From: Nocardia brasiliensis
GTDB lineage: Bacteria > Actinomycetota > Actinomycetes > Mycobacteriales > Mycobacteriaceae
Direction of reading: 5' to 3'
NCBI RefSeq assembly: GCF_011801125.1
Contig: NZ_CP046171.1
Span: 4,402,001-4,466,000, forward strand
Length of the DNA stretch: 64,000 nt
The position numbers and the translations under genes are program-made. Positions 48,181 through 63,773 of this stretch are shown piece by piece. Below the pieces are notes generated by a model that was given only the letters and a program-made list of their open reading frames with translations, was not told the origin of the DNA and ran no database searches. Each line of letters begins with the position of its first letter. Position 1 is the first letter of the stretch.

Positions 48181-49977
48181 TCACTGAGGGTGGCGGGAGA
48201 TCGGACGGCTCTCGGCCAGTGCCCGATCGAGGCGGTGCAGGGTTCGCCCGGTCAGGGCGGGGCTGAAGGCGGCCAGGTCGAGGAGGGTGGCCGACGCGGT
48301 CTGCTCGGCTATCCGGGCGACCGCGGGCCCGAGTGCCGCCTCTACGATCGCGCGGGTGTCGGCCGTGGCGAGCAGATCGGTGATCGCCATGCGCACGCCA
48401 GGACGCCCGGTCGGAAAGTCTTCCGGAATCGGGAGCGGCTCGACAGCTTCCCGGTAGGTCGCAAGCTGGGTCCTGGCCAGCAGGTGCCGGGAATCGGCCT
48501 TCCCCACTGGCGGCAGGCCGAGGCGGCGGAACTGGGAATCCGGCGCGTCGTTGGCGCGCATGAGGTCGAGCAGCAGGTCGATCATTCGCAGTTCGAGGTC
48601 ATCGTCGACGATCGGATTCTCCTGGTGGGGATCGCTGTCCAGGTCGAAAAGCACTGTGCCGAAAGCGAACGGGTCCCCGACGGCGAAGCCGGGTATGCGT
48701 AGCACCGGGACGTTCTTGGTGAACGACAGCGGGCCGACCAACTGCGCGTCCTCCAGTTCGCCCGGGGTGAAGCGGGTGGCCATGTGCGTGGGCATCAACG
48801 TGTGTTCGAACAACGGGGCATTTCCCGGCGCGGCGGGGGCGCGCAGATACACGTACCGCCCGTCGGTGACATTCACGTGCCCGCCGAAGACTCCGAACAG
48901 CGCGCCCGCCCGCAGCGGGTTCGGTGCTGGATCGCGCAGCAGCGGCAGCAGAGACCGCCCCTGCATATCCGCGGTGGGCTGGAGGCCGAAGAAATCCAGC
49001 AGGGTAGGGCCGAAGTCGATGGTCTGCACCAACTCTCGGCAGGTGTCCGCTCGCGTCCCCGCTATCGGATCCCACAGGAACAGCGGCGTGTGGATGTTTT
49101 CGTCGTACCAGGGCTGCACGTTCTTGCCCCACCAGCCGTGCTCGCCGAGCAGGAACCCGTGGTCGGTGCACACGATCAACAACGTGTCGTCCCACAGGCT
49201 CAGCTCGTCGAAGACATCGAGGACGCGACCGAGCGACGCGTCGCACATCGTCAGCAGCGCGGCGTACTCGGCCCGCATGCGTCGCACGGTGTCGGAATCT
49301 TCTTCCACCCGTTTGTAATCGGGCCACGCCATGGACTCGCTCGGCGCGTCCAGCGCGGAATAGTGGCGTTGGTGGTCGCGGTGGGAGAAGTACGGTTCGT
49401 GTGGGTCGAAGCACTCGATCTGCACGAACCACGCGTCCTCGGCGTGATTGGTCCTGATGAACTCGAGACCGGCGTTCACCGTTCGAACCTGCGGGTGATC
49501 AGCCGGTTCGGTCAGGTACTTCCGGTTGATCAGGTCCTGCCGCCACAGGTGGTGGCGCACCCGGCGCCCGCTCTGCGGCTGCGGCGGATCGGCGACCTGC
49601 CCCTTCCACGCGTCGCCCTCCTGGCCACGGAAGAACTCGAAGGTACGGAATCGATTGTGGTACGTCGCGCCGCCGTCCTCCCAATAGTGCGGATGGTCGG
49701 TGACCAGATGCGGATAAATTCCCGCCGCGGACAGCATCTCTGGCACAGAATCGTCGAAAGGCTCCAAGGGACCCCAGGAACGGTGCAGAAAATTGTGGCG
49801 GCCGGTGTGCATTTCCCGGCGGGCGGGCATGCATGGCATCGAGCCGCCGTAGCAATTGTCGAACCGCACGGTGTGCGCGGCGAGCCGGATGAAGTTCGGC
49901 GCGTGCACCCACTCGGCGCCGTACGGCGGCAGTAACCGGCGGTTGAGACTGTCGAACAACATCAGGACCGCGCGCAT
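48181..49977 (-). CDS. Type I (formylglycine) sulfatase
   Basis: 598 residues from the ATG at 49977, which shares one base with the PadR stop (TGATG); the longer frame is antisense to PadR. The formylglycine motif is C49-M-P-A-R within GGSMPCMPARREMHTGR, the cysteine type that needs FGE. Metal ligands can be placed at D9 and in LLIVCTDHGFLLGEHG. It hydrolyses sulfate esters in the alkaline-phosphatase superfamily. No signal peptide, so it is cytosolic and needs the linked transporter. The C-terminal 150 residues after the fold are long and unassigned. Phosphonate hydrolases are a family alternative. Confidence 0.92.
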   Translation of the reverse strand: MRAVLMLFDSLNRRLLPPYGAEWVHAPNFIRLAAHTVRFDNCYGGSMPCMPARREMHTGRHNFLHRSWGPLEPFDDSVPEMLSAAGIYPHLVTDHPHYWEDGGATYHNRFRTFEFFRGQEGDAWKGQVADPPQPQSGRRVRHHLWRQDLINRKYLTEPADHPQVRTVNAGLEFIRTNHAEDAWFVQIECFDPHEPYFSHRDHQRHYSALDAPSESMAWPDYKRVEEDSDTVRRMRAEYAALLTMCDASLGRVLDVFDELSLWDDTLLIVCTDHGFLLGEHGWWGKNVQPWYDENIHTPLFLWDPIAGTRADTCRELVQTIDFGPTLLDFFGLQPTADMQGRSLLPLLRDPAPNPLRAGALFGVFGGHVNVTDGRYVYLRAPAAPGNAPLFEHTLMPTHMATRFTPGELEDAQLVGPLSFTKNVPVLRIPGFAVGDPFAFGTVLFDLDSDPHQENPIVDDDLELRMIDLLLDLMRANDAPDSQFRRLGLPPVGKADSRHLLARTQLATYREAVEPLPIPEDFPTGRPGVRMAITDLLATADTRAIVEAALGPAVARIAEQTASATLLDLAAFSPALTGRTLHRLDRALAESRPISRHPQ

Positions 49978-50582
49978 CAGTTGCCCGCCTTGCGAATCCC
50001 GGCCTGCCCTGCCTCGGCGATGTCCGCGCGGGCCGCCAATTTCTCCAGCAACTCCTCGAGCCACGCGATCCAGCCGTCGATCTGCCGCTCGCCATGACGG
50101 CGGATCTGTCGTGCGATGAAATCCAAGGCCTCGGCATCGATTTCGGCCCGATCGTCGTCGGTCTCGGTGTCGTACGGTCGGTTTCGGTTGAGTCGCACCT
50201 GCTCGCGCCGGGCCGCCAGCTCTGCCTGCACGAGATCGAGCGTGCCCGGCTCGCCGAGCATCATGCTGACGCGCAGCCGGAAGGCGAACTCCGGATCCTG
50301 GAACCGCCGCGGCGGCAGGTACGCCGAGCGCACCCAGCGCCGTAGCCGCGCCATCCCGGCCTCGGTGACGGAGTAGATCTTCGCGTCCGGTCCGCCGTCG
50401 CGGGGATCGGTCCGCCACACCACGGAACCCTCGACCTGCATGCGGTTCAGCTCGCGGTAGATCTGGCTGGCATGGCGGTCCAGGCCGACGAACTTGCCCT
50501 CGATCTGGCACCACCGCTTGATGTCGTAACCGCTCATCGCCCGGGCAGCCAGGAGGCCGAGCAGCGGATATTCGAGCTTCAT
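49977..50582 (-). CDS. PadR-family regulator
   Basis: 201 residues from the ATG at 50582, preceded by GGAAGGG; the track of open codons upstream is not used. KLEYPLLGLLAARAMSGYDI and HASQIYRELNRMQVEGSVVW form the winged helix, followed by a C-terminal dimerisation helix with EELLEKLAARADIAEAG. First gene of the sulfatase operon and most likely its repressor; a palindrome sits just upstream. The inducer is unknown, perhaps the sulfated substrate. Confidence 0.9.
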   Translation of the reverse strand: MKLEYPLLGLLAARAMSGYDIKRWCQIEGKFVGLDRHASQIYRELNRMQVEGSVVWRTDPRDGGPDAKIYSVTEAGMARLRRWVRSAYLPPRRFQDPEFAFRLRVSMMLGEPGTLDLVQAELAARREQVRLNRNRPYDTETDDDRAEIDAEALDFIARQIRRHGERQIDGWIAWLEELLEKLAARADIAEAGQAGIRKAGN

Positions 50583-51387: not shown

Positions 51388-52743
51388 TCACTTACCCGAT
51401 GCGCGAGATCGGGGCGTTGCGTACATCCGCAGGTTCTGTGGCCGCAGTGTCGCGCTGAGGCCAGCGCGTACTTTCTGGTTGGGTTCGTGCTCTAGGCGCC
51501 AACGGGTGGCGATGGATGCCAGGGCCAGAATGGCTTCGGTCATGCCGAATGTGTCGCCTATACATTTTCTGGCGCCTGCGGAAAAGGGAAGTAGTGCGTG
51601 TCCGGGCGGTTGGGGACGTTGCGGTTCCCAACGGCCGGGATCGAAGGTTTCCGGATCGGTGTAGAGGTCGGGTCTGTGGTGAATGAGGTAGGGGCTGTAG
51701 GCGATTGTTGTTCCGGCGGGTAGTAGGTGGCCACCGAGGTTGGTGTCGGTGGTGACTATTCGGGTGAGAAACCATGCGGGAGAGTAGAGCCGGAGCGTTT
51801 CCGTGATGATTCGCGCGGTCAGTGAGAGTTGTGGAAGATCCGCGTGGGTCGCTGTTCTGCCGCCGAGGACGGTGTCCGCCTCGGCATGCAGCTGCTGTTC
51901 GATCTCGGGGTGCCGGGCGAGCAGGTGCAGCGCCCAGGCAAGCGTGGCGGCGGTGGTCTCCGTGCCGCCGAGCAGGAAGGCTATGAGGGTCCCGCATATC
52001 TCGGACGCGTCCATACTCTGACCTAGGTGAGCCGCGGCATGGGTCGAGAGCAGCGCGGAGAGTAGATCGCCGTGGTCGGCGTCGTCGGCGCGGCGCCGGG
52101 CGATGATCTGACCGCAGGTCTGGAAGAGCCGGGAGCGGGCGCGCTCCCAGGAACGGGCTTTCGGTATAGGGAGCGGGTCCAGGAACGCGGCCATCAGTGT
52201 TCGCCGATAGACCCAGTCGAAGAAGGTTTTTACGTCCTCGATGATCTGTTCGTGTTCAGGTGGGGTCAGTGCGTCCGAGAACAGGGCAGTCACACTGACT
52301 GTCGCAGTAATCTTCATCATTTCGGTCGGCACATCAAGCTTTTGTCCGGCGTGCCAGGAGTTGACAATCGAGTCGATGCAGCTACTCATGTTCAGGGCAT
52401 AGCCGGGCAGTCGGGACGGATGGAACGCAGGTTGGGCGAGGTGGCGTAGTCGGCGGTGCCTGTCGTGGGGGGCGTTGAGGATTGAGTTTCCACCCATGAA
52501 CTCCCGTGTCCGCTCCCAGATAGGCCCGCCCTTGTCGAATATCTTGTCTCTGACGATCGCTTGTCTGGTCATCTCCGGGGTGCAGATGACAACCATGGGG
52601 TGCGAGCCGAGTCGGATACGTACGAGATCTCCGTGCGTGGGCAGTGAGTTCATGAATTTCAGGGGATCGACACATAGCGGAACCAGATGGCCGATCAATG
52701 GTAGTGCTCCGGGGGCAGACGGAATCGAGACCGAGTTCTTCAC
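51388..52743 (-). CDS. Cytochrome P450, terpene-oxidising type
   Basis: 451 residues from the GTG at 52743 (GGAG five bases upstream), 13 bases after the terpene synthase stop; a longer frame would overlap that gene by 140 bases. The N terminus PSAPGALPLIGHLVPLC is proline-rich, as in pentalenene oxygenase-like enzymes. The I-helix FLLGGTETT, ExxR in ITETLRLYSP and heme loop LPFSAGARKCIGDTFG are all canonical, unlike the CYP157-like pair at 27-29 kb. As last intact gene of the encapsulin/terpene run it probably oxidises the cyclised product. No ferredoxin gene is adjacent. Confidence 0.92.
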   Translation of the reverse strand: MKNSVSIPSAPGALPLIGHLVPLCVDPLKFMNSLPTHGDLVRIRLGSHPMVVICTPEMTRQAIVRDKIFDKGGPIWERTREFMGGNSILNAPHDRHRRLRHLAQPAFHPSRLPGYALNMSSCIDSIVNSWHAGQKLDVPTEMMKITATVSVTALFSDALTPPEHEQIIEDVKTFFDWVYRRTLMAAFLDPLPIPKARSWERARSRLFQTCGQIIARRRADDADHGDLLSALLSTHAAAHLGQSMDASEICGTLIAFLLGGTETTAATLAWALHLLARHPEIEQQLHAEADTVLGGRTATHADLPQLSLTARIITETLRLYSPAWFLTRIVTTDTNLGGHLLPAGTTIAYSPYLIHHRPDLYTDPETFDPGRWEPQRPQPPGHALLPFSAGARKCIGDTFGMTEAILALASIATRWRLEHEPNQKVRAGLSATLRPQNLRMYATPRSRASGK

Positions 52744-52756
52744 GGCGTCTCCGAAC

Positions 52757-54331
52757 CTAAATATAATTCCACCACCAGCGGATGGATTCAGGTGGTGCGA
52801 TATGCGGAAAGAGGCGCGTAGGTGAGACATCGTGTATGGCGTTATCGGATAGCCGGCCGGTAGAGATGGGCTGACCGGCGCCATCGAGCGATGCATAGTA
52901 TCGGGGAAGTCGCCGCTGCCACTCCAAGGTTCCCCTGATCATATTGGACAGGTGCTCGAGGTAATCACGGAGTGCGGGGGTGCCGTCTTTGGCCAGTTTA
53001 TGTTTGAGTGTGACGAATAGTTCCGTGATTTCCTCGACGAGAGCACAGGCCCGGTAGATCGCTTCTTGCCGAGAGCATCGATTCTCGGTTGCTATTATCC
53101 CGACTACATTGGATTCGAGGCTGTGTTCGTCACATTCGCGCGCGTAGGACGGGATGTCTGTGGAAAGGGCGAACAGCAACCCGGTAGCGGCGGTCATCGC
53201 CCGTACCTCAGGTGTGTTCCTCGTGACGAAGTCCAAGCAGGTTCTGTCAAGAGTTTCGACAAGGAGGACCAAAGGTGGCCCCCCGCCATCGGGGCCACGG
53301 GCGATCATGTGCTCGTCCAAGCTGCGCATATAGTTGCCGGAACGGTCGGAGACACCACAGCTGGCGCCCAGTGCCCACCGGAAATGAGCCATCGAGATCA
53401 TCGCGGCATGTTCGGCCGGTGTGCGGGCACGCACTCTGGCCATGATATCCGCCAAAGCGGCGGCAAGACCGTCGAAGACATGATCGCCGATCGGTCCGCG
53501 CTCCGGATCGATCGCGTACTGCATGAGATTCAATGCCGCGTGGTTATACGCGGTAGGGTCCCTCGTATAGGGGCCGGAATCGCAGTAATAGTCGTCGAAC
53601 AATAGCGCCCACATCAACCAGTCCGACATGAGCTGCACACCCTCGTCATCGCTCTTGGACCCGTACATGCACGCCAGATCCCCCGTACACATACTCCGAG
53701 CCGATTTCAGCAGATCGTCACCGAGTCCCATCTTGCGGAAGAACTCCTCTGAACCGAGCTGAAAAATCAGTCCATCCCCATAAGAAAACAACTCTAACGG
53801 ACACCAAATAGGCGGGATATCCAGCGCACCTCCTGCGCCACTACCGGTCAGCCGTTCGCGAGTAAACACCTCCTCCAAGAACTCGACCAAATCAGATGAA
53901 CGAGGAAGGGCAGGCGCATGGGACGAGCTCGCGAGACCACCACGGCGGCCGTTCGACAGGGACGCCGCGCGGCGCATCCGATCGCTGAAGTCATCGGCCG
54001 TCCCGCCGCTGGGCCCGCTCGGATAGCTTCCCGCCTGCGAGTCGGGTACAGCAGAACGGTCAGACGACCTCGGTGCAGCGGAGCGAAGCAGACGGCGGCG
54101 TGACTGATCGAGGTGGACACTCTCACTCGCGGCGACTTGGTCACCGGCGCCGTCCATTCGCTCGACAGCAGCCGTGGCGTCGATGCCGTCCGACACGGCC
54201 GCGAAGTCTTCTGCTCCGGACTCACCCATCTTCGACACTGCTGGGTCGATTCCGAGTAGCCGCCGCACATCCGCGGCGGCAGTGCCGATCCCGGTGAAAC
54301 CATGGACAACCGGAAGCAACGGTGTAGACAT
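52757..54331 (-). CDS. Terpene synthase 1, encapsulin-cargo type, with long disordered N terminus
   Basis: A 524-residue class I terpene synthase related to 2-methylisoborneol synthases. The first ~145 residues are S/A/G/D-rich and look unstructured (e.g. SDRSAVPDSQAGSYPSGPSG); in related systems such a tail loads the enzyme into a family 2B encapsulin. The catalytic domain starts near 150. The first metal motif is D246-D-Y-Y-C-D. At the NSE site the sequence is N408-VVG-I412-IAT-E416, with isoleucine in place of serine, which is unusual. TAGGAGAACAC precedes the start; it lies 8 bases after shell 1. No geranyl-diphosphate methyltransferase is present, so the product is unlikely to be 2-MIB. 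Confidence 0.88.
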   Translation of the reverse strand: MSTPLLPVVHGFTGIGTAAADVRRLLGIDPAVSKMGESGAEDFAAVSDGIDATAAVERMDGAGDQVAASESVHLDQSRRRLLRSAAPRSSDRSAVPDSQAGSYPSGPSGGTADDFSDRMRRAASLSNGRRGGLASSSHAPALPRSSDLVEFLEEVFTRERLTGSGAGGALDIPPIWCPLELFSYGDGLIFQLGSEEFFRKMGLGDDLLKSARSMCTGDLACMYGSKSDDEGVQLMSDWLMWALLFDDYYCDSGPYTRDPTAYNHAALNLMQYAIDPERGPIGDHVFDGLAAALADIMARVRARTPAEHAAMISMAHFRWALGASCGVSDRSGNYMRSLDEHMIARGPDGGGPPLVLLVETLDRTCLDFVTRNTPEVRAMTAATGLLFALSTDIPSYARECDEHSLESNVVGIIATENRCSRQEAIYRACALVEEITELFVTLKHKLAKDGTPALRDYLEHLSNMIRGTLEWQRRLPRYYASLDGAGQPISTGRLSDNAIHDVSPTRLFPHIAPPESIRWWWNYI

Positions 54332-54339
54332 GTGTTCTC

Positions 54340-55752
54340 CTAAACGATTCCTACGTCGACGTGTTCGAGCATCGCGATAGCGTCGGGCACGAGTACCGCG
54401 ACAGAGAAGTAGCCGGTCACCAAATAGCTCGCTATAGCGTGGTCATCGACACCCATGAATCGCACTGCGATGCCGTCATCGTATTCGTCGGGCATACCCG
54501 TCTGATGGAGCCCGACGACGCCCTGGTCATCGGCACCGGCACGGAATGCGATGATCGAAGTACTTTGGGAGTCTGTAATCGGCATATGCGGGCACGGGAA
54601 AAACGGGATGCCAGCCCAAGCCGTTACCGGGCGATCGTGTACGCGGATAACGTCTGGCACGAGCCCACAGCGATTGCACTCGCGACGGAACGCGGAGATG
54701 GCTTTCGGATGGCCGAACATATGGCTGGCGTCTCGGCAGATTTCCAGAATCGAATCGATGTCACCGGGAGTCGGCGGCCCAGACCCTGTCGAGATGCGTT
54801 GATTATGCTCCACGTTGTGCAGCAAACCGAAATCCCGATTATTGATCAACTCCCACTCGCCACGCTCCCGTATTTCCTCCACGACCAGCCTCAGTTGCTC
54901 ATCGAATTGGTTCATCGGATCGTTGTACAGGTCCTGAACCCGGGTGTGAACACGCAGAACAGATTGCGCCAAAGACAGTTCGTATTCACGTGGAGCCACT
55001 TCGTATTCGACATATGTCTGCGAAATCAGCGGTTCACCTTCGTGCCCGGAGGTGACATCTATGACAGCTTCGCCCTTGGCATTGACACGTAGCGAAGAGT
55101 TGGTCATGAACGTAGTTATATGTTGACGGAGGTCCGCATGGTCCTGAAATACGTCCAGGAATTCATCCCACGGGATGACGACGACCGTGGACTCGGTAGT
55201 GGCACGGACCGTGGCCGACCAGATCGGCTCATCTTGAAGTAGTGCCTCGTCGCCGAGATGGTCGCCGTCGGTAAGGATCCCCACCAATTGAGGGATGCCG
55301 TAGGAATCGGTGACGGTCCGTTCGAGACGGCCATGAACAACCGCAAGAGCAAACCGCACCTCTTGACCCTGTTCTACGATCACTTCACCGCTTGGCACAG
55401 CGCGAGGGCGGCACCGGCCCGCGAGCATCCGGAGTACATCGAGATCGCCGTATCCATGCAGTACCGGTATTTCGGTCAAAGACTCCGGTACGACCTGAAT
55501 ATCTCCAGCGGGGGCCTCGACGAAGGCGACGCGGCCGCGGCTACGACGGAGAGTTCGCCGCCGGTTGACCCGGTAGACTCCGCCGACAGCCTCCACCCAC
55601 GGCAACTGGTCGAGTAGCCATCGGTCGGTGATGCCGGCCATCTGCGGCGCTGTTTTAGTGGTATCGGCCAGAGCGCGTGCCCCGAGAGTACTCAAGGCCT
55701 GGGCGTCAGTTCGGGGAATGTAGACCCGATCGCTATCGCGCACCGTTGTCAT
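54340..55752 (-). CDS. Family 2B encapsulin shell protein 1 (with cNMP-binding-like insertion)
   Basis: A 470-residue protein. The N arm and start of the HK97-like fold read LADTTKTAPQMAGITDRWLL and LPWVEAVGGVYRVNRR; a cyclic-nucleotide-binding-like domain is inserted at about 100-220 ([30 protein letters not shown]); the shell fold resumes ([51 protein letters not shown]). This is the architecture of EshA-like family 2B encapsulins, which form T=1 protein compartments. The phosphate-binding arginine of the CNB domain appears to be tryptophan (PIWSATVRA). No DNA-binding domain is present, so it is not a Crp regulator. ATGA overlap with terpene synthase 2. Confidence 0.92.
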   Translation of the reverse strand: MTTVRDSDRVYIPRTDAQALSTLGARALADTTKTAPQMAGITDRWLLDQLPWVEAVGGVYRVNRRRTLRRSRGRVAFVEAPAGDIQVVPESLTEIPVLHGYGDLDVLRMLAGRCRPRAVPSGEVIVEQGQEVRFALAVVHGRLERTVTDSYGIPQLVGILTDGDHLGDEALLQDEPIWSATVRATTESTVVVIPWDEFLDVFQDHADLRQHITTFMTNSSLRVNAKGEAVIDVTSGHEGEPLISQTYVEYEVAPREYELSLAQSVLRVHTRVQDLYNDPMNQFDEQLRLVVEEIRERGEWELINNRDFGLLHNVEHNQRISTGSGPPTPGDIDSILEICRDASHMFGHPKAISAFRRECNRCGLVPDVIRVHDRPVTAWAGIPFFPCPHMPITDSQSTSIIAFRAGADDQGVVGLHQTGMPDEYDDGIAVRFMGVDDHAIASYLVTGYFSVAVLVPDAIAMLEHVDVGIV

Positions 55753-56798
55753 GGCAGCCTCGCTGTTCTGAGTGTGGATTCATAGCCAGAACCCGGTATA
55801 TCGGCGGCTTTCGGACCAGGGCGGTCCGGATCGATGGTCAAGATTCCGCTTCGCAGGCCGTTCCATCCGAACCCTGGGCCGTGGTACCGCGTGGTCTCCA
55901 GAGACCACCGGAGATTGCCTGAACACAGCGATTCGAGAGCGCTCACATAGATTTGAATCTGAGGAATGTGACAGTAGCGACGACGCAGGACCCCATAGAT
56001 CCTCGAAAGTTCGGCGTCGACGTCCCGGATCAGCGTGCCGGTGATATCCAAGGCCTCCTGTAGTGGACAGTGGTGCACGTATGCCAAGATGGCTACGACG
56101 TTGAACAGGTCGCCGTGGTCGAATTCTTTCCGGAAGGAGAGAAGGTCATTCACCAAAAGGGCATGCATGCACACGGCACGCTGCGCTCGCATTATATCGG
56201 GATCGACGTCTACAACCTCGGACAGGTCGATTCCGTGGACATATTCCGCGCACACCACCAGGGGCTGAAATCCAAAACTTAGTTGACGTATCGCAAGGTA
56301 TCTTTCGAAGTCCGGCAAGATGCCGCGGCCGGTGTACTCGCGCTCGGCAAGTATCCCACGGAAGCAGTTCTCCCATCCATCTCGGTAGCGTCGGAAGACC
56401 CGTTTCGACATGTGCCCTTCGACTGTCTGCCAGATGTCGGAGAAAGCGGGTCCGTAGGGATGGCCCGCGGTCCGATCCGAGACGATCTCATTGAATGCCG
56501 CATGCTGCCGCAACGCCAGGTCGTCCACCTCGAACATCAAGGAGTTCATGCAGGCAGAGTGCACGACGCGCTGAGGAAGTCCCGCAGGAAATATCAGCGC
56601 GTCGAACATAGGATAGCGTCGTTCGAAAAATTGCATCATTGCCGCCGCATCAACGAAAGGCAGTAGTCGACGAGACCAAGCGGCGTGATGTTCATATATC
56701 ATGGGATATTCCGGATTTATGCGAGATTTGGTGTGGCAAGTCGGTTCCGGAATTCGAAAGGAGCTCGTGCCGCTAGTCGTATGCGCATTTGTGGTCAT
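55749..56798 (-). CDS. Terpene synthase 2, encapsulin-cargo type
   Basis: 349 residues from the ATG at 56798; the open frame extends 114 bases upstream but without support. A short S/T-rich N-terminal tail (TTNAHTTSGTSSFRIPEPT) precedes the alpha-helical domain. The first metal motif is weak: FEVDDLALRQ, D92-D93, lacking the third acid. The second is a complete NSE triad: N217-DLL-S221-FRK-E225. A C-terminal TTRYH supplies the conserved RY pair. It differs strongly from synthase 1, so the locus may give two products. Its stop overlaps the start of shell 1 (ATGA), tying expression of cargo and shell. Confidence 0.88.
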   Translation of the reverse strand: MTTNAHTTSGTSSFRIPEPTCHTKSRINPEYPMIYEHHAAWSRRLLPFVDAAAMMQFFERRYPMFDALIFPAGLPQRVVHSACMNSLMFEVDDLALRQHAAFNEIVSDRTAGHPYGPAFSDIWQTVEGHMSKRVFRRYRDGWENCFRGILAEREYTGRGILPDFERYLAIRQLSFGFQPLVVCAEYVHGIDLSEVVDVDPDIMRAQRAVCMHALLVNDLLSFRKEFDHGDLFNVVAILAYVHHCPLQEALDITGTLIRDVDAELSRIYGVLRRRYCHIPQIQIYVSALESLCSGNLRWSLETTRYHGPGFGWNGLRSGILTIDPDRPGPKAADIPGSGYESTLRTARLP

Positions 56799-56938
56799 GG
56801 CGCGCTTCCGTTGAAGAAAGCGCCCACGACCGCATCGGCCGAACCATCGAGAGCGGTGGTACCGGTCGTCTGGTATAGACGACGACACTTCGAACAGTCG
56901 GCGCCTCGACATCTCCGTCTGGCGATCGCCTGAACCAC
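56795..56938 (-). CDS. 47-residue cysteine-containing small protein
   Basis: A GTG at 56938, six bases after AAGGAG (56945-56950), opens 47 codons whose TGA overlaps the ATG of terpene synthase 2 (ATGA). The peptide begins VQAIARRRCRGADCSKCRRL (Cx4Cx2C) and ends with TTALDGSADAVVGAFFNGSA. It fills most of the 237-base gap between shell 2 and synthase 2 and has both translation signals expected of a real gene. No family is recognised. It might be a coupling leader, a metal-binding peptide or a detached cargo tail. Confidence 0.5.
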   Translation of the reverse strand: MVQAIARRRCRGADCSKCRRLYQTTGTTALDGSADAVVGAFFNGSAP

Positions 56939-57035
56939 GACCCTCTCCTTACTCGGCCGCATCAGATTCGGAGCGTAGCTCGAAATATGTCTTCTCCGAG
57001 GCCACAGCAATCAGTGATTCGGTTTCCGGCCATAC

Positions 57036-58466
57036 TCACCCTCGCGGCGCGGCGACGCTGACATGTTCCATGATGCCGATCGCGTCTGGCACCAGGATCG
57101 CGACCGAGAAGTACGCAGTCACCAAATATGACATGATCGCGTGCGGGTCCACTCCCATGAAGCGCACGTTCAGCCCGGCCTCTACCTGGTCAGGAATTGA
57201 GTCCGGTCGCAACCCGACCACCCCCTGCCTGCTCTCGCCGATTCGCATCGCAATGATCGAAGTCAGCTGTGCGTCATTGACCGGAATCTTCGGTAGGGGG
57301 AACAATGGCACACCTCGCCATGTCGGTATCTTCCGCCTTCCGACGTCCGTTGTTTCCATGACCAGACCGCGATGGTTACATTCCCGGGCGAAGGCAGCGA
57401 TGGCCTTGGGATGGGCGAAGAGGAGATCGGTTCCACGCCGCATGGCGAGCAGCTCGTCCATATCGTCCGGAGTCGGCGGACCGGAGTGTGTGGCGCAGCG
57501 CTGATCGTAATCCGCGTTATACAGAAGGCCGAACTCGCGGTTGTTGACCATCTCCCATTCCTGCTGTTCACGTATTTCCTCGACTGTCAGCCTGAGCTGC
57601 TGCTCTACCTGATTCATCGGCGTGTTGAACAGGTCTGCCACGCGAGTATGGACTCGCAGCACGGTCTGAGCCAACGACAGCTCGTATTCTCGAGGTGACA
57701 GCTCGTATTCGACGAATGTACTCGGAATTTCCGGCTCACCCTGATGGCCGGAAGCCAGGTCGATGACGGCCTCACCTTTGGAGTTCACTCGGCGATTTGC
57801 CAGCGAGAGTGTAGTGGCGAGGTGCTCGCGCAGACTGGGCGATTGATCGCGCAATTGAAGAAATTCCTGCCATGGCAAGGACATCAACGTCCCAGAAGTG
57901 ACGGCACGGACGCTGGCAGTCCACAGCGGATCTGTTTGCATGAGCGCCTCCTCACCGAGATGGTCGCCGTCGGTCAACATTCCGAGAAGTTCGGTATCGC
58001 CGTAGCTGCCGGTCGTCGTCCGTTCGAGCCGGCCGTGAGCCAGGAGGAATACTTCCTGTACCGGCTGCCCCTCTTCGACGATGACGTCGCCGGGACGGAA
58101 TTTTCGCGTCACGAACAGCTGCGCCGCTCGATTCAGCACCTCCAAATCCTCATAGCCACGCAAGATCGGTATTTCAGTAAGCGTCTCGGGAACGACCTGG
58201 ATCTGGTTCGCGCCGGCCTGAACGAACGAGACGCGACCACGTCCGCGGCGCACCGTGAGACGACGATTGACGCGATACGTGCCGCCGGCGACAGAGACCC
58301 ATGGCAACTGTCGCAACAACCAGCGTGACGTGACCCCAGCCATTTGGGGGGGCGTTTTTGTCGTCGTCGCAAGGTTGCGTGCCGCGCTCGTGCTGAGGGA
58401 CAGTGGAACTGCCTGCGCTTCGGGGAGGTCAGGCTGCTCGAAAGAAGTGTCAGGCTGCGTGGTCAT
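57036..58466 (-). CDS. Family 2B encapsulin shell protein 2 (with cNMP-binding-like insertion)
   Basis: A 476-residue paralogue of shell 1, with GAGGAG upstream of its [23 protein letters not shown] and [16 protein letters not shown] align almost residue for residue with shell 1. The CNB-like insertion holds [12 protein letters not shown] and [18 protein letters not shown], and again has tryptophan at the phosphate-arginine position (PLWTASVRA). The shell fold resumes with [20 protein letters not shown] and ends [20 protein letters not shown], then [10 protein letters not shown]. Two shell genes in one operon allow a mixed shell or two compartments. It lies 79 bases after the prenyltransferase stop. 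Confidence 0.92.
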
Positions 58467-58545
58467 TTCGGTAGTCTCCTCGAATCATGGATAGGTGTTC
58501 TGTGGTCGATTGCCCAGTCACGGACTGCGCGATGGTAGTGACCAC

Positions 58546-59586
58546 TCAATTCTTTCGATGAGTCATGAGTTTGGATAGCGTGTCCAGTTCGGGCGATACG
58601 AAGCGCGCCGGAAGACAACTGAAAGCGTTCACTATCAGTCGGTCGACTTCCTTTTGTGCCCACTGCCTTCCGCCCGCTTCCTCGATTAGTTCAGCGGCGA
58701 GTGCCACCTCTCGAGCTGATAGCGGACCAGTTCGGCGATAAAGCATTTTCAGTTTCGCTGCGGCTTCAGTGCCCGACTGCATGGCCGCCACAACCGGTAA
58801 GGTATAACGCTGCCTGGCCAGGTCCTCAGCGGGTTTGCCAGTGACAGCCGGATCACCCCAGATGCCGATCAGATCGTCGACGATCTGGAATGCCACACCG
58901 AGTTCACGCCCGAATCGATCCATCATTGCGACGGTGGCTTCATCGGCATCTGCGCACAAGGCACCCAATGCACACGCGCAGCCCATCAAGGCGGCTGTCT
59001 TTCCTCGTGCGATAGCCTCGCAATCCTCGATTGTAGGCAGAGGTTCGGGTGCTGTCCGACAATCCTCATGCTGTGCCCTGCACAATTCGATCACTGTTGA
59101 TTCCAGTCGGCACAGTGCCGATCCCGCTATCGCGACGGGCAGTTGTGCCGCGAGTACTTGTGCCGCAAGTGCGTGCAGACCATCACCGAGCAGAATCGCG
59201 TCCGATACGCCCCACACCGACCATACCGTTGGTCGATTTCGACGCATGGCGTCACAATCCATCACATCGTCGTGAACCAATGTGAAGTTGTGGATCAGTT
59301 CCACTGCCACCGCGGCGCTCGACGCCGAGTCGCGCTCGCCCCCGCAGGCGGTGCAGCTGCATACCGCGAGTGCGGGCCGCACGAGTTTTCCCGCACCGCC
59401 CCCGCCGCTGAGCTCGCCAGGTGATTCTGACCAACCGAAGTGATACTCGGCCATCTGCTTCAACGGTGCCGGCAACGAGCTCACCGCCCTGCGTAATTTC
59501 GGCTCCACGATCGTTCGGACCTGAGTGACGACCGCAGCGGGCCGGCCCGAGGACGAATCCGAGGCAGTGCCGGTAGTCAAATTCAT
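58546..59586 (-). CDS. Polyprenyl diphosphate synthase, encapsulin-associated
   Basis: 346 residues from the ATG at 59586 (a TTG at 59607 is possible). The first aspartate-rich motif is LVHDDVMDCDAMRRNRPT, the second FQIVDDLIGIWGDP; GGGGAGKLVRPAL marks the substrate-binding N-terminal region. This is the trans-prenyltransferase group that includes GPP/FPP/GGPP synthases; chain length cannot be read safely. The N-terminal NLTTGTASDSSSGRPAA stretch may be a cargo tail, as polyprenyl transferases are known family 2 encapsulin cargo. First gene of the minus-strand terpene/encapsulin run. Confidence 0.9.
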   Translation of the reverse strand: MNLTTGTASDSSSGRPAAVVTQVRTIVEPKLRRAVSSLPAPLKQMAEYHFGWSESPGELSGGGGAGKLVRPALAVCSCTACGGERDSASSAAVAVELIHNFTLVHDDVMDCDAMRRNRPTVWSVWGVSDAILLGDGLHALAAQVLAAQLPVAIAGSALCRLESTVIELCRAQHEDCRTAPEPLPTIEDCEAIARGKTAALMGCACALGALCADADEATVAMMDRFGRELGVAFQIVDDLIGIWGDPAVTGKPAEDLARQRYTLPVVAAMQSGTEAAAKLKMLYRRTGPLSAREVALAAELIEEAGGRQWAQKEVDRLIVNAFSCLPARFVSPELDTLSKLMTHRKN

Positions 59587-60019
59587 TGAACACCCAACCT
59601 GTCGCAATAGATAACGCGGAGATAAGTCGAGAAAGTTCCAGTCGTGTATCGGTAGATCGTCCTTCCACGGGTCGACTATCTTGACGGCTCCTTACCCAAG
59701 GCTCCTCCAAACACCGCCGAGTAGCGCCGCGCCCGACGCATGACGGTTATGCGTCCACTACATTGCCGGGCATTCCGGGTTTGCAGCCGACCGCGACAGA
59801 AGCCGTCGAACCCCTCGTCCATGCAACGTACCGTCGAGTCTTATATGCGTATAGAGCATTTCCATGATGCGTGGTAGGTACTTCTGTCCCGGTGACGATG
59901 AGCGCAGAGTTGGTTGCACAGCTTTGGATCTGTGGAACGGCGGCATCGCCGGTCCACCGAGCAGTCCGACACAGCGATGTCCAGACGACGCAACATCGCC
60001 TCTGTGAATGAGAGCGTTT
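59587..60019. other. Divergent control region between terpene and mevalonate operons
   Basis: About 430 bases between the prenyltransferase and mevalonate kinase starts. No gene is supported. The stretch around 59840-59860 is AT-rich (TTATATGCGTATAGAGCATT), and TTGACG occurs at 59691-59696, but I could not fix a convincing promoter pair. Both operons must start here, so shared control is likely. Confidence 0.45.
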
Positions 60020-61015
60020 ATGGATTTGACCGAGCCCGTCCCTGGCACCTTGATCGGTGCCGGTACCGCATGCGGCAAAGCCATCTTGATCGGCGAGCAC
60101 ACCGTCGTATACGGACTGCCTGCTATCGCGATCCCGTTGGCGTCTTTACATATCAAGGCCACAGCCCATATCTCGACCGCCACCACATCCCGACTCACTA
60201 TTTCCACACGGCACGCCGACGGCGGAAGAGTTGATGGGTTTTTCACCTGCCGATCCGATGCGTTGTCAGCAGGCTCGGACGGTGCCGTCGTCGCTGTCGT
60301 GGCGGCACTGCGCAAATGGGGTCTCCACCACGAAGCGGCAGCGGTGAGACTCACCGGCGACTTACCGCCGGCGCGTGGGTTGGGGGCGAGCGCGGCCTGC
60401 GCAACTGCCGCTGTGCGCGCAGTCGCGGACGCGGTCGGCACAACTGTCGGCAGGCGAGCGCTTTACGAACTGGTACAGGTCGGTGAACAGCAAGCGCACG
60501 GCCGTGCCAGCGGGATCGACGCCGCAGCGGTGATCGCTGCACAGCCGATCCGATTTCAGGATGGAGCAGCACGTGTACTGCCCGCGCGCTCAGACGCGGT
60601 GACAGTGCTCGCCGACACCGGCATGCCGAGTGTTACCCGGCGAGCGGTGGCGGCGGTCCAGTCCATCGTGCACCGCAACCCAGCGCGCGCTCGCGGACTG
60701 CTCGACGAGGCCGATTGCCTCATCGATGATGCCCTGGCGGCCCTGGACGCCTCCGACGTCGTGACTTTGGGGGCGCGGATGAATGGCTTCCATTCTCTGC
60801 TGATGGAATTCGGCGTCAGCACCGAGGCGCTGAACAGGTTGGTGGACGCTGCTTCGAGAGCCGGGGCACTGGGCGCCAAGCTCACCGGCGGTGGGCTCGG
60901 CGGTTGCGTGCTCGCGTTGACCCAACCGCACGATGCCGCAGTGGTGCAGCAGGCGCTGATGTCGGCGGGCGCACGCCGAACATGGACGATACCGTTCGGG
61001 GGGCCGTCCTCGTGA
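60020..61015 (+). CDS. mvk: Mevalonate kinase
   Basis: 331 residues from the ATG at 60020 (another ATG at 60008). GHMP-kinase motifs: GKAILIGEHTVVYGLPAIA at the N terminus, PPARGLGASAACATAAVRA as the phosphate loop and KLTGGGLGGCVLAL as motif 3. It phosphorylates mevalonate at C5. Gene order and sequence match the Streptomyces CL190 mevalonate cluster, where mvk is first and mvaD, pmk, idi, hmgr and hmgs follow. Here its stop overlaps the next start (GTGA), but that next frame is a remnant. Confidence 0.93.
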   Translation: MDLTEPVPGTLIGAGTACGKAILIGEHTVVYGLPAIAIPLASLHIKATAHISTATTSRLTISTRHADGGRVDGFFTCRSDALSAGSDGAVVAVVAALRKWGLHHEAAAVRLTGDLPPARGLGASAACATAAVRAVADAVGTTVGRRALYELVQVGEQQAHGRASGIDAAAVIAAQPIRFQDGAARVLPARSDAVTVLADTGMPSVTRRAVAAVQSIVHRNPARARGLLDEADCLIDDALAALDASDVVTLGARMNGFHSLLMEFGVSTEALNRLVDAASRAGALGAKLTGGGLGGCVLALTQPHDAAVVQQALMSAGARRTWTIPFGGPSS

Positions 61016-61314: not shown

Positions 61315-61532
61315 CCGCGCGCGATGAGATCGGTAATCGCAAAGTCGACCACATCCGGTTGGCGATCGACCAACTGGACCACTCAGCGCCCGTCGGCAGC
61401 GACTTCGACTCGGCGCGTTTCATCCGCCACGCCCTGGGGTGTTGCTTTTCGGGCTCGCCACCGTCACCCGCCCGACATCCCCGAACGGCCGCACTCGACA
61501 TCACGAATCGCGGACAGGAGGCTCTACCGTGA
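61311..61532 (+). pseudogene. idi2: Gutted type II isopentenyl diphosphate isomerase gene
   Basis: The first ~43 codons read NRKVDHIRLAIDQLDHSAP and SDFDSARFIRHAL, matching the FMN-type isomerase N terminus (RKDDHVRLAIEQ...FDDVSFVHHAL). Then the protein sequence changes abruptly. The last codons (TAALDITNRGQEAL) could be the original C terminus (TRRLAQRSSSIEAL in Streptomyces). About 280 codons with the FMN and catalytic regions are gone. The stop still overlaps the hmgr start (GTGA). The product cannot be an isomerase. Confidence 0.75.
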
Positions 61533-62581
61533 CCACGCTCCACGCCCCAGTGCCGTTGGTTTGGCAAGGCCCGATTCGTATCACAGGCAACACCGTCCAC
61601 GACGAGATCGAGGTACCGCTGGCCACCTTCGAAACCCCGTTGTGGGCCTCGGTACGCCGCGGCGCCCGCCTGTCGATGTCGATCGACAGCGGAATACTCG
61701 CCACCGTTATCGATGACCGGATGACTCGCTCGGTCCTGCTCGAGGCCGATGACGCGAGCGCCGCACTCGCCGCGGTACGACGCATACACGACCAGTTCAC
61801 ACAGGCCCGCACGGTCGCGGCCGAGGGCAGCCGGCACACCGAGCTGATCGATGTGCACCACCAGATCACGGGAAATCTGCTGTTCCTGCGCTTCGAGTAC
61901 CGCACCGGCGACGCCGCCGGGCACAACATGACCACCGACGCAGGCGATCGACTCATCGCCTGGCTCTTGGCCACCGTCGAAGGCCTGCGCTATATCTCGG
62001 TATCCGGCAACTACTGCACGGACAAGAAGGCGAGCGCAGTCAACGGCATCCTCGGACGGGGCAAGAACGTCGTTACCGAAATCACTGTTCCCGCAAGGCT
62101 GGTCGCCCAACGCCTGCACACCACCGCTGCCCGCGTCGCCGACCTCAACGTCCGCAAGAACCTCATCGGGACCGTCCTCGCCGGCGGAATACGCACCGCC
62201 AACGCCCATTACGCCAACATGCTCCTGGCCCTCTACCTCGCCACCGGACAGGACGCCGCCAATATCGTCGAAGGCTCACAGGGAATTACTCACGCCGAGA
62301 ACCGCGGCGGAGACCTGTATTTCTCCTGCACCATGCCCAACCTCATAGTCGGCACCACGGGCAACGGCAAGCAGCTCGGGTTCGCGGAAAACAATCTGGA
62401 CCGGCTCGGCTGCCGCGACCCCCGCGCCCCGGGTGATAACGCTCGTCGCCTCGCGGTCATCGTCGCCGCGACGGTGCTGTGCGGTGAGCTCTCGCTGATG
62501 GCCGCACAAACCAACCCGGGCGAACTGATGCGCGCCCACACCCGACTCGAACGCGCTCCCCACCGAACCGAACCGAGGTAA
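61529..62581 (+). CDS. mvaA: HMG-CoA reductase
   Basis: 350 residues from the GTG at 61529, seven bases after AGGAGG (61516-61521). It matches the Streptomyces enzyme throughout: EIEVPLATFETPLWASVRRG with the catalytic glutamate, GDAAGHNMTTDAGD, SGNYCTDKKASAVNGILGRG with the catalytic lysine, VRKNLIGTVLAGGIRTANAH, and TMPNLIVGTTGNGK. It reduces HMG-CoA to mevalonate with NADPH. All active-site segments are intact. It is followed by the synthase after 4 bases. Confidence 0.95.
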   Translation: MTTLHAPVPLVWQGPIRITGNTVHDEIEVPLATFETPLWASVRRGARLSMSIDSGILATVIDDRMTRSVLLEADDASAALAAVRRIHDQFTQARTVAAEGSRHTELIDVHHQITGNLLFLRFEYRTGDAAGHNMTTDAGDRLIAWLLATVEGLRYISVSGNYCTDKKASAVNGILGRGKNVVTEITVPARLVAQRLHTTAARVADLNVRKNLIGTVLAGGIRTANAHYANMLLALYLATGQDAANIVEGSQGITHAENRGGDLYFSCTMPNLIVGTTGNGKQLGFAENNLDRLGCRDPRAPGDNARRLAVIVAATVLCGELSLMAAQTNPGELMRAHTRLERAPHRTEPR

Positions 62582-62585
62582 CCGC

Positions 62586-63773
62586 ATGTCCGCCCCATCC
62601 ATCGGAATCCACGACCTGTCGATCGCCACCACGCACTACGTCATCGACCAGGCCACCCTCGCCCGCTACCATGGCGTCCCGATCGATAAGTACCACCGCG
62701 GTCTCGGCCAAGAAGCCATGAGCGTCGCCGCCGCGGACGAGGACATCGTCACACTCGCCGCCACCGCCGCGAGGCCCATCCTCGACCGTCACGGCACCGA
62801 CAGCATACGAACGGTGTTGCTGGCCACCGAATCCTCTGTCGACCAAGCCAAAGCCGCAGGGCTGTACCTGCACTCGCTGATCGGCCTGCCACACACCTGC
62901 CGCGTCGTCGAACTCAAACAAGCCTGCTATTCCGCCACCGCCGCCCTGCAACTCGCCACCGGGCTCATCACCCACGATCCCACCGAACACGTCTTGATCA
63001 TCGCCACCGACATCGCACGCTACGACCTCGATACACCCGCGGAAGCCACCCAAGGAGCCGCGGCAACTGCCATTCTCGTCACCGCTGACCCTGCACTGGC
63101 CGAACTGCATCCCGTCACCGGCATCTACTCCACCGATATCAACGACTTCTGGCGCCCCAACTACCGCACCACCGCGATCGTCGACGGCAAGCTGTCCATC
63201 AACGCATACCTCAACGCCATCCACCACGCCTACACCGATTACCGCCACCGCGGCGGTCGCGCCCTCGACGAGTTCGCCGCCTTCTGCTACCACCAGCCAT
63301 TCACCACCATGGCCTACAAGGCTCACCGGCACCTGCTGCAGGCCCACGACTTCTCCCCCACCACAAGCGATCTCGATCACGCCCTGGCCGCCACCACCCA
63401 CTACAACCGAATGATCGGCAACAGCTACACCGCCTCGGTCTATCTCGCCCTGGCCTCGCTGCTCGACCACGGCGACGACCTCACCGGCAAACCCATCGCC
63501 ATGCTCAGCTACGGATCCGGATGCGTCGCCGAGTTCTTCACCGTCACACCGGTCGGCGGCTACCGCACAGCCCTGCGCACCGACACCAACCGCGAAACGA
63601 TCCACGCGCGCAAACCAATCGACTACCACCGCTACCGCGCGTTGCTCACCGAACCACCCCACACAAAGGGAAACCATGTGCTCCCCCGGACAACCAACGC
63701 GCCCTACCGACTCGCCGCAATCGACGACCACACCAGAGTCTACGAAACAGTCCGTCGAGCAGAGACAGCCTGA
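62586..63773 (+). CDS. mvaS: HMG-CoA synthase
   Basis: A 395-residue thiolase-superfamily enzyme condensing acetyl-CoA with acetoacetyl-CoA. The nucleophile cysteine is in ELKQACYSATAALQLATG, the catalytic glutamate in GLGQEAMSVAAADED, and the histidine in CYHQPFTTMAYKAHRHL. GNSYTASVYLALASLL and SYGSGCVAEFF are the C-terminal motifs. Length and position match the Streptomyces cluster. The ~30-residue C-terminal end after PRTTNAPYRLAAIDDH is normal. It is the last gene before the second IS copy, 27 bases away. Confidence 0.95.
   Translation: MSAPSIGIHDLSIATTHYVIDQATLARYHGVPIDKYHRGLGQEAMSVAAADEDIVTLAATAARPILDRHGTDSIRTVLLATESSVDQAKAAGLYLHSLIGLPHTCRVVELKQACYSATAALQLATGLITHDPTEHVLIIATDIARYDLDTPAEATQGAAATAILVTADPALAELHPVTGIYSTDINDFWRPNYRTTAIVDGKLSINAYLNAIHHAYTDYRHRGGRALDEFAAFCYHQPFTTMAYKAHRHLLQAHDFSPTTSDLDHALAATTHYNRMIGNSYTASVYLALASLLDHGDDLTGKPIAMLSYGSGCVAEFFTVTPVGGYRTALRTDTNRETIHARKPIDYHRYRALLTEPPHTKGNHVLPRTTNAPYRLAAIDDHTRVYETVRRAETA

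Follow-up and report, generated by a model that had tools for sequence, protein, structure and literature searches.

A two-shell operon and the ancestry of its shells

Operons with two family 2B encapsulin shell genes, a terpene cyclase (TC) and a prenyltransferase (PT) are an already published class (PMC8346489, PMC12407261; both cited here and below from the available part of their text). In the two-component TC/PT type, the TC gene lies between the shell genes and the PT gene directly downstream of Enc2 (Dutcher et al. 2025, PMC12407261), and the Enc1 and Enc2 shells of Streptomyces lydicus co-assemble into mixed shells (PMC12407261). Here we describe a related operon in a 64,000-nucleotide stretch of Nocardia brasiliensis DNA (NZ_CP046171.1, positions 4,402,001 to 4,466,000; hereafter the window), part of a 7.95 Mb single-contig genome (contig C1). 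Running from 59586 to 51388 on the minus strand, the operon encodes, in order of transcription, a short-chain prenyl-diphosphate synthase (IDS), a first shell (shellB), a small open reading frame (ORF), a terpene synthase (TS2), a second shell (shellA), a second terpene synthase (TS1) and a cytochrome P450; the two shell genes lie less than 10 kb apart on C1, at 4,456,349 and 4,459,051. Judged from its sequence, this operon departs from the published two-shell class in having a non-Enc1 second shell of separate origin, whose gene overlaps that of an untagged cyclase. Profile matches located every gene that an earlier note, made from the letters alone, had named on this strand and at these coordinates, and bore out its terpenoid enzymes (PF19086 for TS1 and TS2, polyprenyl_synt for IDS, p450 for the P450); the novelty it supposed is lower, two-shell TC/PT operons being already a published class.

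The same note had asked for a profile search of the shells, which places both in family 2B: shellB (57036..58466) scores 686.5 bits and shellA (54340..55752) 600.8 bits with encap_f2b, against a curated cut-off of 400. Shells of this family are recognised by an SrpI-like domain of the HK97 fold whose E-loop holds an inserted domain with the cyclic nucleotide (cNMP)-binding fold. Each window shell combines the SrpI-like domain (PF19307) with a cNMP-binding domain (CBD; PF00027), and each aligns nearly end to end with the solved shells 9bhu, 9bix and 9bje of the PDB. By domains and profile, then, shellA and shellB are family 2B encapsulin shells, 58-60% identical to each other. PDB 9bhu is presumably the Streptomyces griseus shell, and 9bje and 9bix were matched to S. 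lydicus Enc1/Enc2 by their printed motif-2 letters. Control of the shell by cNMP was considered and rejected: a CBD position that we take to be arginine in CRP-type domains is tryptophan in all 24 rows covering it (26 rows in all). PMC12407261 states that the insertion domain of family 2B was shown not to bind cyclic nucleotides.

Motif 1 reads TVWK in Enc1 and RRRK in Enc2 (PMC12407261), and in the shell pairs of Nocardia genomes G128 and G060 one shell carries LVWKEP and the other RRRK. The window pair has neither the Enc1 motif upstream nor the Enc2 motif downstream; its motif-1 regions read AMRRG in shellB and EICRD in shellA, the VWK insertion is absent from both, and the luminal-loop region of shellA reads DVIRVHDRPVTAWAG. 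We placed the shells in a tree of 57 rows, comprising 33 of 120 listed shells (the 120 being the best matches to shellA) and 24 others, with Enc1-type shells thinly sampled and the motif columns kept in. ShellA falls in a clade of 10 rows and shellB in one of 9, each with support of 100/100, the former on a long stem of 0.45 changes per column. Both clades lie within a larger one of 29 rows (100/99), the named ones being Nocardia, and this larger clade stands apart from the S. lydicus pair and the G128 and G060 pairs. Approximately unbiased (AU) tests rejected constraining the shellA clade with the VWK rows (p-AU 1.2e-29) or with S. lydicus Enc1 (p-AU 9.6e-54). The AU rejections and the position in the tree together indicate that by descent shellA is no Enc1, and by the same comparison neither window shell is orthologous to Enc1. 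Provided that the tree is right, two-shell operons have more than one origin, and the kind is not defined by the Enc1/Enc2 motifs; drawn mostly from the best shellA matches, the tree cannot count the origins of two-shell operons overall.

All six operon genes stand in the same order in a comparison N. brasiliensis genome, at 70-92% identity, and every one is under purifying selection (ratio of nonsynonymous to synonymous substitution rates, dN/dS, 0.05-0.19), so that the gene set is more than a chance assembly. Among the shells this ratio is 0.051 for shellB and 0.086 for shellA. Decay of shellA as a redundant duplicate without a role of its own would agree with its being the less conserved shell and with its interruption in a second operon of the same genome (see below). 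However, its own low dN/dS and the long, fully supported stem of a clade retained in several Nocardia speak for constraint, and we regard such decay as highly improbable.

One tagged and one untagged cyclase

Family 2B shells occur in 108 of 148 Nocardia genomes, and among the matches listed there are at least 12 loci, in 11 genomes, where two family 2B shells, both intact, lie no more than 10 kb apart; seven of these 12 were read, those of G032, G045, G113, G021 and G110 not being among them. TS2 matches (E up to 1e-20) are confined to 6 of the 148, two of them weak (38% and 30% identity). A second operon of the same genome (own2; C1 ~3,198,300-3,212,800; L011, L012) has counterparts of the window's IDS (58% identity), shellB (80%), TS2 (63%), shellA (68%), TS1 (60%) and P450 (45%), and holds IspH, DXS, IspG and a ferredoxin/reductase protein between shellB and TS2. 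Two loci of G036 read IDS, shellB, IspH, DXS, IspG, TS2, shellA, TS1 (G036a) and IDS, shellB, TS2, shellA and a cyclase of a third kind that bears the TS1 tag (G036b). In G079, TS2 lies upstream and is followed by IDS, one shell, IspH, DXS, IspG, ferredoxin/reductase and a tagged cyclase, and in G012 the order is IDS, shell, tagged TS1 relative, shell, with genes for hydroxymethylglutaryl-CoA (HMG-CoA) reductase, HMG-CoA synthase, mevalonate kinase and two P450s around them. The G086 cluster (L026, L027) combines mevalonate genes with a relative of IDS (52%) and two cyclases, of which one is distantly related to TS2 (37%), with no shell and no tag in 27.9 kb; in G092, a distant TS2 relative has no shell within 20 kb.

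Both window cyclases match Terpene_syn_C_2 (PF19086) above its cut-off. TS1 (52757..54331, minus strand), recognised as a class I terpene synthase by profile matches and alignment (A2; 15 of 23 TS1 relatives and the own2 copy), has the metal motifs DDYYCD and TDxxSxxxE and is 55% identical over 62% of its length, the catalytic domain, to ArgT of N. argentinensis, a guaia-1(10),11-diene synthase (PMC10055836, available part). Its long N-terminal tail, residues 1-148 (53888..54331), is predicted to be disordered (predicted local distance difference test, pLDDT, <50) and carries TGIGT at residue 13, inside a candidate cargo-loading motif at residues 10-27 (HGFTGIGTAAADVRRLLG; 54251..54304) that resembles the published consensus GPTGLGT (PMC8346489). 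With a disordered extension and a GPTGLGT-like motif, the features by which terpene-cyclase cargo is recognised, TS1 is predicted to be cargo. The motif TG(I/L/M)GT stands on exactly one cyclase in 7/7 shell loci (window, N. brasiliensis, own2, G036a, G036b, G079 and G012), on none of the six TS2-type cyclases of the shell loci read, and on none of seven cyclases outside shell operons (a standalone TS1 homologue of the same genome, a second N. brasiliensis homologue, two from G086 and one each from G092, L017 and L018). The standalone relative (51%) begins at the catalytic domain. Between the tagged cyclases of G036a and G036b, 17 of 22 tag residues are identical and the catalytic domains share 28%; between that of G036b and window TS1, the values are 15/22 and 24%. 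The tag thus behaves in these alignments as a module independent of the enzyme, kept in G036b on a different catalytic domain. PF19086 identifies six class I cyclases in the genome, five of them in encapsulin loci.

TS2 (55749..56798, minus strand; PF19086, 1.8e-33), also of class I, very likely starts at 56798 rather than 56912, since its relatives align only from 56798. Its first metal motif is reduced to DD (EVDDLALRQ) and NDxxSxxxE is intact. We rejected the possibility that it is an inactive relic: N217, D218, S221, E225 and R171 are invariant, and R304 and Y305 nearly so, in the 29 rows of alignment A1 (29 of 36 listed relatives, with P0010, P0013 and P0032-P0036 left out), and its dN/dS is 0.11. 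Alignment and motif scan revealed neither a TGxGT motif nor an N-terminal tail in TS2, the features that mark TS1 as putative cargo. Among its relatives, P0011 of Nocardia terpenica (51%) reads RGPTGLRTTATSA near the N-terminus; a TS2-type enzyme may there also have gained a loading tag.

IDS (58546..59586, minus strand; PF00348, 1.5e-54) is IdsB/geranylgeranyl diphosphate (GGPP)-synthase-like, with the aspartate-rich motifs HDDVMDCD and DDLIGIWGD; its best NCBI model, GGPPsyn_IdsB, scores 413.5 bits, under the cut-off of 475. Polyprenyl-transferase cargo of encapsulins is recognised by a disordered N-terminal domain of 50-100 residues. In IDS, about 16 first residues are unconserved, the sequence is then conserved among IDS relatives, and the Pfam match begins at residue 72 of 353, so the evidence for IDS as cargo is mixed. 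The earlier suggestion that precursor synthesis and both cyclisations are housed in the shell is supported in part by TS1, with its published motif on a predicted disordered tail; TS2 has no such signal, and for IDS the evidence points both ways.

As the earlier note had pointed out, synthase and shell are coupled: the stop codon of TS2 and the start codon of shellA overlap as ATGA (55749..55752, minus strand), suggesting translational coupling, and TS1 follows shellA after 8 nt. The overlap recurs in 5/5 loci read where TS2 adjoins shellA or a shellA remnant. Five of the six listed shellA-type proteins besides the window's (P0062-P0066) come from contigs of the same length as that of a TS2 in the protein lists, and the sixth, N. 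brasiliensis P0061, is paired with a TS2 at its locus. Together, overlap and co-occurrence fit one shell subunit per cyclase, and PMC12407261 raises the possibility that each shell loads a different cargo. We consider it about an even chance that the two-shell operon builds one mixed shell, in which TS1 is packaged by its tag and TS2, if at all, via shellA. ShellB would be the shell-forming scaffold, being the more conserved of the two, sharing its type of motif 1 with S. lydicus Enc2, which self-assembles, and having a counterpart that stands alone with a tagged cyclase in G079. That single-shell locus, with its tagged cyclase beside a shellB-type shell, would also place the tag receptor most simply on shellB. 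The TGIGT motif near the N-terminus of TS1 would then serve for its packaging, and shellA would be the route, if there is one, by which TS2, co-translated with it and untagged, enters the shell. Working inside or outside the shell, IDS would supply a prenyl diphosphate, probably of C20 length and perhaps of C15 as well; TS1 would form a sesquiterpene-type hydrocarbon and TS2 a second skeleton; the P450 would oxidise a product outside the shell, and the neighbouring mevalonate genes would raise the supply of isopentenyl diphosphate. In a more specific form, which we offer tentatively and consider unlikely as a whole, each cyclase would have a subunit type of its own: the tagged enzyme would dock on shellB, shellA, produced by coupled translation with TS2, would have arisen in the Nocardia line as a dedicated dock for that tagless enzyme, two skeletons would be made side by side in a single nanocompartment, and supply would be swapped between mevalonate and methylerythritol phosphate (MEP) genes in the paralogous operons.

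The restriction of tag and tail to TS1 is also what would be expected if TS1 were the only cargo, with TS2, IDS and P450 working in the cytosol in the same pathway and shellA tuning shell stability or pores, and the shell-free G086 cluster of IDS, two cyclases and mevalonate genes agrees with this. Such an arrangement leaves unexplained, however, the ATGA coupling of TS2 to shellA and the absence of shellA in single-shell G079, where TS2 lies upstream of IDS and away from the shell gene; we consider it possible, if somewhat unlikely. The shells could instead assemble individually into two separate compartments, one loading TS1 and the other TS2, as the 2021 survey leaves open (PMC8346489). Their identity is only 58-60%, they differ at the pentamer-interface motif 1 and in the luminal loop, and their clades are each well supported. 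Yet the one two-shell pair characterised in the papers cited here co-assembles (PMC12407261), shellA or its remnant is accompanied by an intact shellB in 5/5 loci, and the loading tag is on one cyclase only, which makes two compartments improbable.

Several observations count against a mixed shell in which shellA serves TS2. TS2 is untagged, and enzymes like it are found in G079 without shellA and, in the examined stretches of G086, G092, Streptomyces pathocidini and Nonomuraea, without any shell. The shellA-TS2 association comes from a few related Nocardia genomes, some of the same species, so its counts are of loci and not of independent events. The own2 copy of shellA is disrupted by an insertion that carries, on the opposite strand, an integrase-core gene, and shellB is intact; shellA is thus dispensable at least there. 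S. lydicus Enc2 also assembles alone (PMC12407261), and homomeric shells may form here too. Beyond TGxGT the tag itself is poorly conserved, with 8/22 residues shared with the window in G012 and 5/22 in G079. IDS reaches only 404.1 bits with f2_encap_cargo4 (cut-off 450; residues 25-352 of 353). The C-terminal tail of TS2, which ends alike in its relatives (LRTARLP, DTVRLP, ETVRQP, ETMRAS), was rejected as a loading peptide: its coding bases double as the ribosome-binding site (GAGG) and start (ATGA) of shellA, so the TxRLP-like conservation reflects nucleotide constraint from these start signals and is not evidence of a peptide signal. Nor is the product of TS2 settled by its fold. The best sequence and fold match to TS2 (model pLDDT 81.9) in the PDB is AriE (9lpb; 25% identity), which we take to be a diterpene cyclase, and the diterpene synthase VenA is also among the nearest sequences. 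AriE (Z 36.4) and the sesquiterpene synthase Copu9 (Z 35.8) are tied within one Z unit, so that TS2 is not assigned firmly as a diterpene cyclase; the matches to the predicted model do not separate C15 from C20. Finally, function, interaction and assembly are all read here from genes.

Precursor supply, the small ORF and neighbouring genes

The P450 (51388..52743, minus strand; PF00067, 1.8e-80) is pentalenene-oxygenase-like and most likely starts at the GTG at 52743, 13 nt past the TS1 stop, a start read from the sequence and backed by that of its N. brasiliensis counterpart. Precursor supply at the locus is broader than the earlier note had claimed, since mevalonate genes adjoin the operon and MEP genes stand in the paralogous one. 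Diverging from the operon on the plus strand are genes for mevalonate kinase (60008..61015; TIGR00549, 208.4 bits, cut-off 163.05), HMG-CoA reductase (61439..62581; PF00368, 3.2e-84) and HMG-CoA synthase (62586..63773; TIGR01835, 479.1 bits, cut-off 360.35). The same neighbours occur in N. brasiliensis, where the reductase is 87% and the synthase 86% identical. A mevalonate diphosphate decarboxylase gene lies at 6.05 Mb together with another mevalonate kinase, HMG-CoA synthase and reductase, so that the three window genes form an additional, partial set; likewise, a second IspG at 5.60 Mb makes that of own2 an extra copy.

The small ORF (56795..56938, minus strand) has 47 codons, a GTG start with a good Shine-Dalgarno sequence (AAGGAG) and a stop that shares ATGA with the TS2 start. 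A counterpart can be recognised in N. brasiliensis, the score against it being reached by 0/2000 shuffles. In MEP-type operons a ferredoxin gene stands in this place; as a protein, the ORF was rejected as a ferredoxin remnant, its scores being reached by 30/2000 shuffles for G079, 574/2000 for own2 and 164/2000 for G036a, and its N. brasiliensis counterpart is not ferredoxin-like either (1792/2000 for own2, 790 for G079, 1203 for G036a). Start-anchored DNA alignment with G036a gives 25/54 identities, which 100/20000 shuffles reach, so that a ferredoxin origin is suggestive at most; the ORF is possibly such a remnant or a coupling leader. In G036a, about 21 first ferredoxin residues (MAYVITQPCCNDASCVGECPV; L020:11612-11674) run in frame into TS2, as if the ferredoxin gene had been lost there by a fusion deletion.

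The G+C content of the operon is 59.4%, against 67.0% in window bases 1-50000, a difference that suggests acquisition from elsewhere. On the operon's strand and shortly after its end (48181-50514) lies a gene for a 777-aa sulfatase-family protein with no match in the N. brasiliensis locus. Just beyond the HMG-CoA synthase gene (L014:1832-4480) are two ORF pairs of equal sizes (294 and 100 aa), which by those sizes look like a duplicated insertion sequence. Elsewhere in the same genome, an encapsulin shell stands with a 550-aa prenyltransferase ORF (L010, 2.917 Mb), and a short shell of family 2 neighbours an ORF of 667 aa for a class V aminotransferase (cysteine-desulfurase-like; L013, 3.281 Mb). 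In G079, an IspG copy (84%) lies in a separate encapsulin locus with a prenyltransferase (L036:2412-3536).

Comparison with known systems

The family 2B 2-methylisoborneol (2-MIB) encapsulin (PDB 9bhu) resembles the window system in shell type and in the TG(L/I)GT motif on its cyclase, and differs in having one shell, one cyclase and a methyltransferase. No methyltransferase family was matched by any of the six operon proteins in Pfam and NCBI profile searches, as the earlier note had said of the 2-MIB type. The same genome separately holds a 2-MIB-type locus (L009, 2.815 Mb), where a methyltransferase accompanies a cyclase whose ORF has GPTGLGT twice, around residues 70 and 123. Among individual enzymes, ArgT is close to TS1 in the catalytic domain and has no tail and no tag in its database entry. 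We know of no encapsulin in the AriE system. The aridacin pair of AriE and the P450 AriF parallels the pairing of cyclase and P450 seen here (PMC12927490, available part), with AriE itself only distantly similar to TS2. No description of an operon of the window type in Nocardia was found in the open-licence papers searched, and neither encapsulin nor mevalonate occurs in the available part of the mBio 2025 Nocardia genome survey (PMC12153302).

The S. lydicus Enc1/Enc2 shells are among the closest solved ones and can be aligned over nearly the full length; they belong, however, to an XK operon, carry TVWK/RRRK at motif 1 where the window has ICRD/MRRG, and include an Enc1 to whose group shellA does not belong. 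With the TC/PT type, the window shares two CBD-bearing family 2B shells about 60% identical, a cyclase gene between them and a prenyltransferase in the operon. Unlike in that type, its prenyltransferase gene precedes the first shell instead of following Enc2, the operon continues with a second cyclase and a P450, the Enc1 motif is missing from both shells and shellA is no Enc1 orthologue. This family offers a clean test of why some encapsulin operons make two shells: it combines a tagged and an untagged cyclase, with the second shell seen with the untagged one, and comes with natural variants in single-shell G079, swapped-cargo G036b, shell-free G086 and two paralogous operons in one genome. 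The family further connects encapsulin operons with genes of mevalonate and MEP supply, and it points to uncharacterised terpenoids. Set beside the Enc1/Enc2 systems, the separate origin of shellA and the overlap of its gene with that of an untagged cyclase may tell why a cell makes two shells.

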